Both the position numbers and the translations under genes were made by a program. Of a stretch of 9,874 nt of DNA, positions 4,812 to 9,376 are shown piece after piece. The notes under the pieces were generated by a model, which ran no database searches, was not told where the DNA came from, and worked only from the letters and a program-made list of their open reading frames with translations. Positions within the stretch are counted from its first letter, which is position 1. Every line of letters starts with the position of its first letter. Location: assembly GCA_017616675.1 (NCBI GenBank), contig JAFZXR010000077.1, positions 1 to 9,874 of the forward strand, written 5' to 3'. This stretch comes from Bacteroidales bacterium (GTDB lineage: Bacteria; Bacteroidota; Bacteroidia; Bacteroidales; F082).

Positions 4812-7049
4812 ATGAAAAAACTATTTATTGCCGTGTTAGTCCTAATCTTTGGGGCTAATATCATGATGTCGCAGGAAAACAAGACTTTTACTGTTGGCGA
4901 CGTCACATTTGAGATGGTATATGTTCAAGGTGGTACATTCACCATGGGTTGTGCCGACGAGAGTTCTGGAGAATGTCGTTCTAACGAAATGCCAGCTCAT
5001 GAAGTTACTGTGAGTGACTTTTATATTGGAAAATATGAAGTGACTCAAAAATTATGGGTAGCTTTAATGGGGTATAATCCTTGCTACGACCAGGGAGACA
5101 ATAGGTGTGTGGCAAGAATAGATTGGAAAAAATGTCAGGAATTCATCACAAAGCTAAATAATCTTACAGGTGAGACATTCCGTTTGCCGACAGAAGCGGA
5201 GTGGGAATATGCGGCAAAAGGCGGCAATAAAAGTAAAGGCTACAAATATAGCGGTAGCAATAACATTAACGAAGTGGGATGGATAGTTAATACTGGCCCT
5301 ATTCATAATGTTGGACTTAAGGCTCCTAATGAGTTGGGAATTTATGATATGAGTGGTAATGTTTGGGAATGGTGCCAGGATTGGTATGCTGCTTATGGTA
5401 TGGTAAGTGAAACGGATCCGACGGGACCAGAGAATGGCACTTATCGTATTATGCGTGGAGGTAGTTGGGAAAGCCAAGCAACCCAATGCCGTGTAACGTT
5501 TAGAGGGGGAAATTATCCTATAGAACACGAAAATATGAATACCGGTTTCCGTTTGGCTCTTGTGCCTAAAACAACAGGCAATGTAGAGGAGTCTTCACTG
5601 GAAGTTCCGGAAGGCGCCGTCAAAGGCATCTTCTCTATAAGCGCAGATAAAAAGGTCTTTTTATCAAAAGGCAATCTTCAATACCAACCGTCGACTGAGA
5701 CATGGCGTTTCTCAGATAACCCATGGGATATGATTGGCAATCCGAATATGAATGTTTCTAATACCTATGAAGGCTGGATTGACATGATGGCGTGGGGCAC
5801 AGGTAGATATCCTGCTGTTAAGCCTTCCAGATATTGTAAAGAAATAAAAGTAATCGATTGGGGTAAAAACGATATTTCGAATAGTGATGTAACCAGTTGG
5901 CGTACATTGTTAAAAGATGAGTGGGAATATCTGTTTAACGCGAGAAACACAACCTCCGGCATAAGATATGCAAGAGCGACTGTTCATAATGTGAACGGTG
6001 TGATACTTCTGCCTGATGACTGGAATCCGAATTTATATGAATTGAAAGACAAAAATATTATTTCTGATACTGACTGGACAGATATCTTTGAGGCTAATGG
6101 AGTAGCCTTTTTACCAGCCGCCGGCTTTAGAGATTTCAATAGTTTCAATGGCTTTAACAGTGAAGGTTATTACTGGACCATGTCGAATGATGACACTTAT
6201 TGGGCATATAGTATGATGTTTTCTGATTACAGTTTTACTTCAAATAACATGTCGGCTGCTGCAACTGGTTGCGCTGTGCGTCTTGTATGTCCGACAGATG
6301 CAGTAAAATACAAGAATCAAGAACAGAATAAACCTACTCAAAATAAGAGCAACGGAAAGTTCTCGGTGAGTGACGAGAAACAGGTCTGCTTTTCAAAAGG
6401 AAACTTGCAATACAATCCTTCAAAAGGAATATGGCGTTTTGCAAGAAGACCGTGGTACGTGTTAAGTCGTGAATATGGAAATCAATGGTCATATGATGGA
6501 AGTTGGATTGATTTGTTCGGATGGGGCACAGGTGACAATCCATCGGTGCAATCTGATAATAATGGTGATTATGTAACATTCCATGAATGGGGAGAAAACA
6601 AGATTGCTAATGGTGAAGGTAAAGAATGGTTCACTCTTTCTAATGAGGAATGGAATTATCTGTTCAATACCAGAACCACGACTTCAGGAATGAGATATGT
6701 CAGGGCGTCGATTGACTGCGTGCCTGGCGTGATTTTGTTCCCTGACGATTGGAACGCTAATGTTTACAAGTTTAAAAATGTCAATTATCCTACAGGATAT
6801 AATGTTGTGTCGGATTATGACTGGGATATGGTTTTAGAGCCTAATGGTGCTATATTCCTGCCATGTTCTGGACAAAGAGTTGGCGGCAGTGTCAGATATG
6901 ACGATGAGGGATTTTACTGGTCAGCAACGAGTCCTGATGACGCCAACGCTGTTTTGATATATATAACAAAAGGAGGAATTGATTTCTCACGTGTTATGGG
7001 GCGTAGCTTGGGAGCTGGCGTACGTCTCGTATGCCTTCCTGAAGAGTAA
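4812..7049 (+). CDS. Secreted three-module protein: SUMF1/FGE-fold domain plus two FISUMP-like repeats
   Basis: This 745-residue exported protein starts with a signal peptide (about 1-21, 'MKKLFIAVLVLIFGANIMM') and has no lipobox cysteine. Module 1 (about 28-252) is a formylglycine-generating-enzyme-like (SUMF1) domain, with 'VQGGTFTMG', 'YEVTQKLW', 'FRLPTEAEWEYA', 'MSGNVWEWCQDWY' (180-192), 'MRGGSW' (214-219) and 'GFRLAL' (245-250). Only one cysteine (C226) lies in the stretch where true FGEs carry the catalytic Cys pair, so enzymatic activity is unlikely. Modules 2 (about 272-494) and 3 (about 515-743) are clearly homologous to each other. Each runs 'F(L)SKGNLQY.PS..WRF', 'WID...WGTG', 'W.TL..EWEYLFN.R.TTSG.RY', 'GVIL.PDDWN' and 'VRLVC', which resembles the FISUMP-type paralogous domains of Fibrobacteres and Bacteroidetes. 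A polar Gln/Asn/Lys linker (about 495-514) separates them. No type IX sorting domain is seen at the C-terminus. The likely role is a periplasmic or extracellular binding or structural protein; the ligand is unknown. Confidence 0.85.
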   Translation: MKKLFIAVLVLIFGANIMMSQENKTFTVGDVTFEMVYVQGGTFTMGCADESSGECRSNEMPAHEVTVSDFYIGKYEVTQKLWVALMGYNPCYDQGDNRCVARIDWKKCQEFITKLNNLTGETFRLPTEAEWEYAAKGGNKSKGYKYSGSNNINEVGWIVNTGPIHNVGLKAPNELGIYDMSGNVWEWCQDWYAAYGMVSETDPTGPENGTYRIMRGGSWESQATQCRVTFRGGNYPIEHENMNTGFRLALVPKTTGNVEESSLEVPEGAVKGIFSISADKKVFLSKGNLQYQPSTETWRFSDNPWDMIGNPNMNVSNTYEGWIDMMAWGTGRYPAVKPSRYCKEIKVIDWGKNDISNSDVTSWRTLLKDEWEYLFNARNTTSGIRYARATVHNVNGVILLPDDWNPNLYELKDKNIISDTDWTDIFEANGVAFLPAAGFRDFNSFNGFNSEGYYWTMSNDDTYWAYSMMFSDYSFTSNNMSAAATGCAVRLVCPTDAVKYKNQEQNKPTQNKSNGKFSVSDEKQVCFSKGNLQYNPSKGIWRFARRPWYVLSREYGNQWSYDGSWIDLFGWGTGDNPSVQSDNNGDYVTFHEWGENKIANGEGKEWFTLSNEEWNYLFNTRTTTSGMRYVRASIDCVPGVILFPDDWNANVYKFKNVNYPTGYNVVSDYDWDMVLEPNGAIFLPCSGQRVGGSVRYDDEGFYWSATSPDDANAVLIYITKGGIDFSRVMGRSLGAGVRLVCLPEE

Positions 7050-7067
7050 GTGTTGTACAATTAAAAT

Positions 7068-7095
7068 TAACCGGTCGCAAATTTGCGACCGGTTA
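7068..7095. terminator. Bidirectional terminator hairpin; palindrome copy 1
   Basis: A perfect 28-bp palindrome with two 14-nt arms centred between 7081 and 7082, core GGTCGCAAATTTGCGACC. It sits between the convergent SUMF1-protein and ORF6N genes. A T-rich run follows on the plus strand (7096-7106), and TTAATTTTAA-type sequence follows on the minus strand, so it can end both transcripts. It carries the same core as the four other palindromes in this locus, but with an even AAATTT centre instead of an odd one. Confidence 0.75.
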
Positions 7096-7105
7096 TTTCT
7101 TTTTA

Positions 7106-7681
7106 TTAGGAAATTCTTTCTAAAATCATTTTCACCATCCACTCTTCATTAATCAGCGTTACGGCAAAACATCTCTTTCCGGCATCTTTTACCGAAGAGC
7201 CTATAGAGTAGGCGATGGTGGAGTTAATGATGATGCTGGTTTGAACTGCGGTTTCGCTTTTAAGTACTGAGGCTAACATGGAAACGCCTTGCTCGGTAAA
7301 GGCATAAGAATTATATTTCGAATGCTTGCCTCGCAAACTTGAAGTCGCAATTTGCGACTTCAAGTTGTTCAAGGTCACAAATTGTGACCTTGAAAGCTCT
7401 TTGTCGTTCTTTAAGGTCGCAATTTGCGACCTTAAAGAATTGTAATATTGTTGCTCATCGTTAGTGAGCTGAAACATATAATGTGCAGGAAAGCGTTCGA
7501 TATTACGCCTAACCTGTTCGTTCAAACGTTTCGTTTTCACTTCATAAATATCCGCTAAGTCCCTGTCAATCATGACTTGAACGCCACGTATTATGAAGAT
7601 TTTATCTTCAATTTCTTGAAGTGTATCTAATTTATAGCTGTTTGTCGCCACAACGGCGCTTGAAATATTTAAAGATTTCAT
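7106..7681 (-). CDS. ORF6N-domain protein, short form with internal deletion and triplicated SQxxT peptide
   Basis: A 191-residue cytoplasmic protein with an N-terminal ORF6N (KilA-N-like, phage antirepressor-type) putative DNA-binding domain at about 27-75: 'IIRGVQVMIDRDLADIYEV', 'TKRLNEQVRRNIERFP' and 'FQLT'. The usual 'YAFTEQGVSMLASVLKSE' block follows at 126-143. Between them the peptide (R/K)SQ(I/F)(A/V)T occurs three times (84-89, 98-103, 108-113), each encoded by a DNA palindrome; as I recall, family members normally have one such segment. After 'SETAVQTS' the protein jumps to 'IAYSIGSSVKDAGKRCFAV' (157-174), which resembles the tail of longer ORF6N proteins that carry a coiled coil and a phospholipase-D-like domain. 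That middle part is absent here, so this is probably an internally deleted form. The frame is open and it has its own promoter with an exact -33/-7 spacing. Its function is unknown. A promoter or repeat-binding regulator is plausible but unproven. Confidence 0.82.
   Translation of the reverse strand: MKSLNISSAVVATNSYKLDTLQEIEDKIFIIRGVQVMIDRDLADIYEVKTKRLNEQVRRNIERFPAHYMFQLTNDEQQYYNSLRSQIATLKNDKELSRSQFVTLNNLKSQIATSSLRGKHSKYNSYAFTEQGVSMLASVLKSETAVQTSIIINSTIAYSIGSSVKDAGKRCFAVTLINEEWMVKMILERIS
7336..7366. repeat. Intragenic palindrome copy 2
   Basis: A perfect 31-bp odd palindrome with 15-nt arms centred on 7351. It has the shared core GTCGCAA-T-TTGCGAC and outer arms AACTTGAA / TTCAAGTT that are specific to this copy. 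Read on the minus strand it encodes residues LKSQIAT(SS) of the ORF6N protein (about 107-115). Confidence 0.9.
7368..7394. repeat. Intragenic palindrome copy 3 (variant core)
   Basis: A perfect 27-bp odd palindrome with 13-nt arms centred on 7381, separated from copy 2 by one base. The core is changed on both arms at once: GTCACAA / TTGTGAC instead of GTCGCAA / TTGCGAC. Symmetry is therefore kept while the peptide changes from SQIAT to SQFVT (residues 99-103). Confidence 0.9.
7407..7439. repeat. Intragenic palindrome copy 4
   Basis: A perfect 33-bp odd palindrome with 16-nt arms centred on 7423, core GGTCGCAA-T-TTGCGACC, outer arms TTCTTTAA / TTAAAGAA. On the minus strand it encodes SLRSQIATLKN (about 82-92). 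Its centre is 42 nt from that of copy 3, and copy 3 is 30 nt from copy 2. Both distances are multiples of three. No T-run follows on either strand, so it is unlikely to be a terminator. Confidence 0.9.
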
Positions 7682-7709
7682 AACAAATAGTTTTTAGAAT
7701 TCGACAATG

Positions 7710-7739
7710 CAAAGATACAAAAAAACTTTGAAGTCGCAA
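7710..7739 (-). promoter_or_regulatory. ORF6N gene promoter (-33 TTG and -7 TATCTTTG)
   Basis: On the minus strand TATCTTTG (7717-7710) matches the Bacteroidetes -7 box exactly. TTG (7739-7737) lies exactly 19 nt upstream, the canonical spacing for the -33 element. The TTG is part of the centre of palindrome copy 5, so any protein binding that palindrome would cover the promoter. Transcription should start near 7704, about 23 nt before the ATG at 7681. Confidence 0.6.
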
Positions 7740-7760
7740 TTTGCGACCTCAAAGTTTTTT
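7720..7760 (-). terminator. Terminator hairpin of the cvpA-elbB-osmC operon; palindrome copy 5
   Basis: A 41-bp inverted repeat with 20-nt arms centred on 7740. It has one imperfect pair (7732/7748), which becomes a G-U wobble in minus-strand RNA. The A-run at 7719-7725 and the T-run at 7754-7760 flank the shared GTCGCAA-T-TTGCGAC core. It begins 18 nt past the osmC stop and would produce a U-tract in the minus direction, so it fits a factor-independent terminator. It overlaps the -33 region of the ORF6N promoter. Confidence 0.75.
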
Positions 7761-8843: not shown

Positions 8844-9376
8844 AAAACATCCTCCACTTTTTCTTCAACTTTTTTGTATTGTTCATTAATCTTCTCGATC
8901 CAGCCGTCCTTGTTTTCGTAAATCCAAGTCGCCACCTTCTCGGAACTCTTGTAAAGCTTGGAACTTTCACAGGTTTCTTTGTTCAAAATATCTTTTATTC
9001 CAAAGAAATCGAGAAGCAAAATTATAATTCCTACAAGTAAAAACCCTTTCGCGATGCCAAAGATCACGCCGCCGAGTTTATCGATAAAACCAAGACTTAC
9101 CGACTCGATTATTCCAGCGATAACATTTCCCAACCAATTGATAATCAAAGCTAAAGCAATAAAAACTACAATAAAAGAAATCACCGACATAAGGTCGTCA
9201 TTGACATTGATGAGCTTTCCGAGCCATTGTCCGACCATGTCGCAAAGCTTGATGGCTCCATAGATGCCGCCGATGAAGGCCGCCAGCGAAAATGCCTCGC
9301 GGATGATGCCGTTTTTCAATCCGCCTAAAGCGAAGATTATCAATATGATACCGATGATTATGTCTAAATAATTCAT
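8840..9376 (-). CDS. cvpA: CvpA family inner-membrane protein
   Basis: A 178-residue membrane protein of the colicin V production family. There are about four membrane helices (roughly 3-20, 27-46, 62-88, 104-126) with typical glycines in the first ('IIIGIILIIFALGGLKNG') and 'LGFIDKLGGVIFGIAKG' before the fourth. A charged, probably coiled C-terminal tail (about 130-178, rich in Lys/Glu) faces the cytoplasm in the likely topology. CvpA proteins are linked to envelope homeostasis, but the molecular activity is not settled. It is the first gene of the operon with elbB and osmC, with a 4-nt stop/start overlap at 8840-8843. Its promoter is shared back-to-back with glnS. Confidence 0.9.
   Translation of the reverse strand: MNYLDIIIGIILIIFALGGLKNGIIREAFSLAAFIGGIYGAIKLCDMVGQWLGKLINVNDDLMSVISFIVVFIALALIINWLGNVIAGIIESVSLGFIDKLGGVIFGIAKGFLLVGIIILLLDFFGIKDILNKETCESSKLYKSSEKVATWIYENKDGWIEKINEQYKKVEEKVEDVL

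Follow-up and report, generated by a model that had tools for sequence, protein, structure and literature searches.

Why should a single short palindrome lie on each side of a small ORF6N gene and also be repeated three times within its coding region? The question is raised by the window, the whole 9,874-nucleotide stretch of Bacteroidales DNA analyzed here, for which a preliminary description had offered three readings: that the ORF6N protein recognizes the sequence, that a ~700-bp unit spreads as a palindrome-bearing cassette, or that a conserved LRSQ-VT segment of the protein is naturally palindromic and was copied.

Results

The pattern GTCGCAA-N{0,20}-TTGCGAC was found four times in the window (7074-7089, 7344-7358, 7416-7430, and 7733-7747), as compared with a mean of 0.01 in 200 dinucleotide shuffles, none of which reached four. 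A fifth palindrome, at 7374-7388 with its centre at 7381, has the variant core GTCACAA-A-TTGTGAC. The five centres reported in the preliminary description (7081/7082, 7351, 7381, 7423, and 7740) were all correct on recount, and its assertion that there are none elsewhere held in a scan of the whole window, which yielded no further centre with at least 11 of 13 pairs; a lone half-site GTCGCAA also occurs at 9239. Its common core is shared by four of the copies but not by the one at 7381, and its placing of three copies inside the gene was right, although only one copy, rather than two, lies outside on each side. On the minus strand, the internal copies span 7407-7439 (16 perfect pairs; core at 7416-7430; encoding SLRSQIATLKN), 7368-7394 (13 perfect pairs; variant core at 7374-7388; encoding SRSQFVTL), and 7336-7366 (15 perfect pairs; core at 7344-7358; encoding NLKSQIATSS), their central translations being LRSQIATL, SRSQFVTL, and LKSQIATS, respectively. 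The copy upstream of the gene (7720-7760, core 7733-7747) has 19 of 20 pairs, and the downstream copy (7065-7098, core 7074-7089) has 14 pairs, one mismatch, and two more pairs. Both outer copies have the stem and T run of an intrinsic terminator, the downstream one on both strands (7068-7095) and the upstream one on the minus strand (7760-7720), after osmC. Together with a plus-strand match at 7368-7394, this makes four terminator-like matches in the window palindromes against 0.8 expected, and the other two internal copies received no score in the same scan. As DNA hairpins, the five copies have predicted energies of −11.9 to −17.6 kcal/mol, and for each of them none of 200 shuffles folded as well. 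By eye, a promoter-like sequence for the ORF6N gene was recognized at 7710-7739 on the minus strand, with TTG (7739-7737) lying in the palindrome arm, a 19-nt spacer, and TATCTTTG (7717-7710); we take this to be the Bacteroidetes −33/−7 type of promoter motif.

The gene itself (7106-7681, minus strand) encodes 191 residues and was assigned to ORF6N (Pfam PF10543, E 6.7e-31; 106.9 bits against a cut-off of 27.8), its sole Pfam match, and to PADLOC family PDC-S05 (E 2.6e-50). We scored 7,998 candidate protein relatives, of which 7,974 were kept and 120 listed. Many of the 120 have one to several units resembling [LS][RK]SQ[IFN][AV]T[LS] between FQLTKEE and YAFTEQG. The window protein lacks, in frame, the middle of its ~325-residue relatives while its last ~40 residues align with theirs; among the matches listed, other short relatives have different internal gaps. 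Full-length relatives (~310-330 residues) have a C-terminal part weakly resembling the VPA1262 N-terminal domain (38.5 bits, below the cut-off of 80), in which an HDRFLIID...GSS motif is, we presume, PLD/HKD-like. The closest PHROGs to the window protein are annotated as anti-repressors, its sequence found no relative of solved structure (best E 0.14), and blastn of the ORF6N region against a phage collection gave no match. Relatives were also seen on 71 plasmid records (42 from Bacteroides, 19 predicted to be conjugative; plasmid hits H1-H15) and in eight unannotated faecal phage records. PDC-S05 was counted 3,275 times in one rumen survey, and the accessible portions of the literature on this family contain trees and counts, with neither a palindrome nor a mechanism. 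PDC-S05, like PDC-S13 (see below), is a candidate phage-defence family by database assignment only, and its role in defence is putative.

A related unit is present at a different place in the 2.4-Mb genome of Bacteroidales bacterium UBA1173 (G001, locus L023). In blastn, the window and L023 share two blocks (window 7060-7216 and 7450-7759) with unrelated flanks, the stretch between the blocks being absent from L023, and their homology stops at the two outer palindromes; this delimits a palindrome-bounded ORF6N unit at 7060-7760 (minus strand). In L023 (2974-3640), the unit keeps both outer palindromes, and its gene is interrupted and without internal ones; by eye, the upstream palindrome overlaps a promoter-like sequence there as it does in the window. 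The osmC gene of UBA1173 (84% identical) has no ORF6N neighbour and carries a lone palindrome right after its stop codon. The loose core was found three times in this genome, at both ends of the ORF6N unit and at the osmC site, against a background of one match to the reversed pattern. The ~700-bp cassette of the preliminary description thus gains from the homology ending at the outer palindromes and from the lone copy at osmC; its movement as a palindrome-bounded cassette is likely but not proven, since gain and loss are indistinguishable and the alignment would cover the same stretch for any gene accompanied by its control elements. Three small hypothetical proteins of UBA1173, two beside the ORF6N unit (L023 3698-4426) and one at the osmC palindrome (L299 913-1314), look alike (L023:4034-4426 and L299:913-1314); none has a Pfam family, and they are possibly a partner family.

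Two further features of the window were noted. The intergenic stretch 4647-4757 matches L023 4896-5136 (100% over 34 bp and 87.5% over 80 bp), where its two parts lie ~130 bp further apart, so that the window appears to contain an internally gapped form of a non-coding element; Rfam had no match for the window or for L023 4850-5180. The 745-residue protein encoded at 4812-7049 has an FGE-sulfatase domain (E 1.8e-42), behind which lie two stretches that resemble each other (direct repeats D3 and D11).

A palindrome at a fixed coding place proved to be a trait of the ORF6N family. We assembled 204 ORF6N genes, no two with the same variable segment, from contigs of many phyla, viral contigs, and mostly Bacteroidota genomes; the set consists largely of Bacteroidota and best-ranked matches, some of its source contigs are titled archaeal assemblies, and it requires the pattern RFP...F[TSCL]E[QHNAE][GA], so ORF6N genes outside this pattern (e.g., some G001 copies) were dropped. 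At least 10 of 12 pairs were found at the same coding place in 190 of the 204 genes, whereas equal-length stretches before and after the segment in the same genes reached this level in 2 of 204 and 2 of 204 cases, respectively (because the genes are related, these counts are not independent trials); 14 genes fell short. The trait was found in 105 of 113 genes from whole genomes, 16 of 18 from viral sequences, and 68 of 72 from contigs, with the window gene counted apart. Perfect arms of at least 8 occurred in 96 of 204 segments as compared with none in either set of control stretches, and in the main class (160 genes) the longest arm averaged 9.5 as against 3.5 under synonymous resampling. The element is ~27 bp long, a dyad of 13+1+13 with the common core TCRCAA-W-TTGYGA and with arms that vary but are complementary; many ORF6N genes carry variant cores, and one alignment with its pair count, being drawn from 20 hand-picked and nearly perfect sites, is uninformative on frequency. 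This control comparison, the codon tests at protein-chosen sites, and the Bro-N control segments described below involved no preselection for pairing.

The ORF6N element is maintained as DNA, whatever the reading frame. Two frames pass over the one place in DNA, giving LRSQIVTL and LVANCDRF. At 171 sites in 138 genes, picked by the protein motif SQx[VA][TIS] alone, Ser was encoded by TCA where Val followed (91 sites) and by TCG where Ala followed (76 sites), with only three TCA-Ala and one TCG-Val as exceptions. At 167 of 171 sites, the choice between synonymous Ser codons therefore predicts which residue stands three codons further on. No Ser codon besides these two was used at the 171 sites, although together they make up 1,041 of the 2,938 Ser codons of these genes. 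On a tree of the 138 genes built without the segment, there were at least 15 codon changes and at least 16 residue changes, and independent codon-residue pairs numbered 15 on all branches and four on well-supported ones; the four agree in direction in nearly all random pairings and are too few for significance. A corresponding test at Leu, likewise at sites chosen by protein sequence, gave TTG with C 43 times, TTA with T 30 times, TTG with T once, and TTA with C never. The near absence of TTG-T indicates that G.U does not serve as a pair, which makes an mRNA stem unlikely, and mismatches in non-coding copies (preselected for at least 10 of 12 pairs) displayed, position by position, no bias of G.T over A.C.

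The extent of pairing was the same with and without translation. After pair 13, it dropped from 134 to 76 of 169 coding sites (shuffled mean of 48 at pair 14) and from 39 to 16 of 52 non-coding copies; preselection of the coding sites for at least 8 of 12 pairs raises the per-position values within the selected pairs, and pairs 13 and beyond are free of selection in both counts. The identical drop thus defines an element of ~27 bp, translated or not. Copies inside one gene differ in both arms without losing their pairing, as in 40 of 66 differing comparisons at k = 4, 57 of 71 at k = 10, and 53 of 66 at k = 11; the sites compared were preselected for at least 8 of 11 pairs and include some spurious second sites. 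A single site for a dimer of fixed specificity was rejected on these grounds, as within-gene copies differ in both half-sites and are still paired.

In the genomes sampled, the exact element hardly occurs away from ORF6N genes. Among 12 genomes picked for ORF6N, GGTCRCAANTTGYGACC had 13 sites in seven genomes, all in or at most ~400 bp from a PF10543 match, and among 148 evenly drawn Bacteroidota genomes it had 20 sites in 13 genomes, of which 18 lay in or at most 350 bp from such a match (14 of 16 when G003 and G007, known beforehand, are omitted); these distances were read by eye. The reversed pattern had no site in the 148 genomes. Copy number of the exact element was 0-3 per genome in both sets. 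ORF6N is present in 39 of the 148 genomes, 27 of which lack the exact 17-mer, and in 199 Bacillota genomes the single exact site is inside the ORF6N gene of the centre genome. The enrichment near ORF6N genes anticipated by the preliminary description was therefore borne out, and the random scatter it had named as counting against a link was not what we observed. The two exact sites away from ORF6N (G153:C26:221453 and G110:C74:9242) are both intergenic. Two more lone copies in G089 were found by the loose pattern GTCRCAN{1,5}TGYGAC, which has a background (43 forward against 24 reversed matches in 19 genomes; 3 against 1 in G001). A 21-bp version, AAGGTCGCAANTTGCGACCTT, was found on 14 viral contigs, all 14 without an ORF6N gene in the DNA examined, and 11 of the 14 sites are intergenic. 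These phage-contig palindromes (L003-L016) often adjoin structural-looking genes and are probably terminators.

Outside the coding region, an upstream copy within 400 bp of the start was found in 34 of the 204 ORF6N genes (41 copies, mostly 26-85 bp from the start) and was lacking within that distance in the other 170; copies after the stop were found in 9 of 204 (18 copies), and a few of the copies outside genes have a weak core. In Flavobacterium, tandem arrays of two to four palindromes with differing arm types lie 3' of the ORF6N gene (L178, L102, L101, L206, and L074). Where ORF6N faces the same convergent neighbour, the copy number in the intervening spacer, read by eye from the Flavobacterium rows of an all-against-all boundary comparison, was four in L178, three in L102 and L101, two in L074 and L206, about one in L098, and none in L200 and L186. 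Filled and empty sites, which the preliminary description had proposed to compare, are thus both represented among non-coding copies at the same place.

Bro-N genes, chosen as a control (loci L311-L365), turned out to share the coding palindrome. Of 32 distinct segments from the PADLOC PDC-S13 group, 28 reached 10 of 12 pairs or more, as against 0 of 32 control segments; this count dropped Bro-N genes without a SIPSPKAE-like motif, and PDC-S04 loci entered it with the filter keeping PDC-S13-like segments. The arms vary widely (GTCGACAA, GTTACAA, GTGACAA, GGGGACAA, and GTCCCAA), and pairs 3-8 were Watson-Crick in 151 of 156 cells at sites taken by best centre. The palindrome lies at the corresponding place, ahead of the stretch that runs into xADGKMRLTDVADTEQ. 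No site with at least 10 of 12 pairs was seen in ten further Bro-N genes (L318, L319, L324-L326, L329, L330, L332, L333, and L335), which lack the SIPSPKAE-like motif and are presumably DinD-like. Among five PF09669 (Phage_pRha) loci, one is the ORF6N gene of G006, and of the other four one had at least 10 of 12 pairs and none had a perfect arm of at least 8.

Discussion

The reading that we favour, to which we give about an even chance, is that each gene encodes the protein that recognizes its element, with the internal copy acting as a portable control and with copies recombining among themselves. A KilA-N/Bro-type DNA-binding product would recognize the element of its own gene as symmetric or extruded (hairpin or cruciform) DNA. 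The internal copy would be a control site that is carried along, the product binding inside the gene wherever it lands, and the bound product would hold down transcription of its own gene, copies over the promoter adding to the effect. A mobile ORF6N gene could not leave such a control site behind, and recombination between copies may account for arrays and solo sites as well as for the in-frame expansions and the palindrome-bounded cassette. That symmetry is constant while arms change, even among the copies of a single gene, suggests that a hairpin or cruciform shape matters in addition to the core. Copies upstream of starts and the kinship with anti-repressors fit self-recognition. Counting against it are the differing half-sites within a gene, which a dimer of fixed specificity would not need, as well as the 27 of 39 ORF6N genomes without the 17-mer, the solo copies, the 170 of 204 genes without an upstream copy, the 14 of 204 below 10 of 12 pairs, and the occurrence of the 21-bp version on 14 of 14 viral contigs away from any ORF6N gene in the DNA examined.

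Alternatively, the element may be a short mobile or recombining palindrome, REP- or MITE-like, that has specialized on ORF6N-type genes, in which case the protein would be carried along, its binding would not be needed for control, and the window unit would be a palindrome-ended cassette. Homology that stops at palindromes, a lone copy at the osmC site of a relative, 0 to 4 copies at one Flavobacterium spacer, solo intergenic copies, and the addition of internal copies in 3-base steps (30 of 32 spacings, sites taken by best centre) are all in keeping with this. However, occupation of a single codon position that is near-universal is atypical of the spread of an inserting element, insertion duplications were not demonstrated, and scarcely any copies lie elsewhere in the genomes, and we regard this alternative as rather unlikely. 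Near-palindromes can also be perfected by intrastrand template switching (quasi-palindrome correction), and an ancient near-palindrome repeatedly re-perfected in this manner would be symmetric without having a function. Such mutational upkeep would produce the joint change of both arms, even within one gene, and would readily tolerate an exchange as mild as that of Ala and Val. It does not predict that symmetry ends at the 13th pair whether a copy is coding or non-coding, that perfect arms of at least 8 are missing from both sets of 204 control stretches, that copies precede the starts of the same genes, or that a second family carries the element at the corresponding place; we consider it unlikely.

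The two remaining alternatives, which place the symmetry in RNA or in protein, fare worse. A hairpin formed by the coding part of the mRNA and governing how the ORF6N message is translated or degraded would account for stable stems and strong covariation, but synonymous G.U pairs that would keep such a stem are nearly absent (TTG-T at 1 of 74 sites and TCG-Val at 1 of 171), non-coding mismatches do not favour G.T over A.C, and the upstream copy in the window precedes the likely promoter, making this explanation very improbable. Still less credible is that a family-conserved LRSQ-VT peptide is naturally palindromic in its coding sequence and was then duplicated, the simpler alternative of the preliminary description. 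Internal copies do encode the LRSQ-VT segment, and it is repeated in relatives; nevertheless, a second frame is read at the same place (LVANCDRF), non-coding copies share the geometry, arms exceed those of synonymous resampling, and synonymous codons are bound to the symmetry through their coupling to residues.

The element has several points in common with known systems. It resembles the Rickettsia palindromic elements (RPEs), which are likewise palindromic DNA read in frame as part of proteins. According to a MITE review (PMC10969869), RPEs measure ~150 bp and lie in many unrelated genes, whereas the ORF6N element is ~27 bp and found at one place in one gene family; in-frame insertion into unrelated genes was not seen, as 18 of the 20 exact sites are at ORF6N and the other two are intergenic. 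REP/RAYT systems likewise have short palindromes (20-40 bp, some intragenic) and a gene flanked by them. According to a REP survey (PMC3733652), REPs are high-copy, tagged with GTAG or CGTC, and mobilized, if at all, by tyrosine transposases; here, copies are few (0-3 exact ones per genome), ORF6N is not a transposase family, and no GTAG or CGTC tag was seen by eye in the aligned copies. The REP/RAYT and Rickettsia parallels drawn in the preliminary description are thus resemblances only, and a dispersed REP or RPE family was rejected since exact sites are nearly confined to ORF6N genes. PARCEL elements, too, are palindromic repeats in coding DNA that spread horizontally, but they are 25-residue tandem DUF285-type repeats with imperfect dyads, with ORF6N and KilA unmentioned in the accessible part of the report (PMC2996958); no 25-residue amphipathic repeat of DUF285 type was found here, the units lying 9-17 residues apart. 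The autoregulatory operators of phage regulators and toxin-antitoxin systems are comparable in that a palindrome lies near the gene for a DNA-binding protein, but the main ORF6N site is inside the coding sequence in nearly all members, with arms that vary and stay symmetric. In open PMC text, outside of which most subscription papers lie, we found no description of the ORF6N element, and no mention of PDC-S13 was found in open PMC text. We rate the ~27-bp element as new as a kind of sequence feature, and its mechanism is what we infer.

The carriers of the element fall into the candidate families PDC-S05 (ORF6N) and PDC-S13 (Bro-N), and for the two together we tentatively propose, as a possibility that the sequence comparisons leave short of probable, that a symmetry-selected ~27-bp site within the part encoding the DNA-binding domain is the target of the gene's own product, travels with it across phyla, and provides copies that serve as recombination ends. 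With the specificity region and the target being one piece of DNA, the control site would travel and change with the gene. The symmetry of the DNA dictates the choice of residue, placing a coding sequence under a second code, and this is near-universal in the sampled members of a family that spans many bacterial phyla and some archaeal assemblies. Should the product indeed target the site in its own gene, this would explain how single-gene elements remain under control when they pass from one phylum to another, and it would offer a first handle on PDC-S05 and PDC-S13, both common and uncharacterized candidates.
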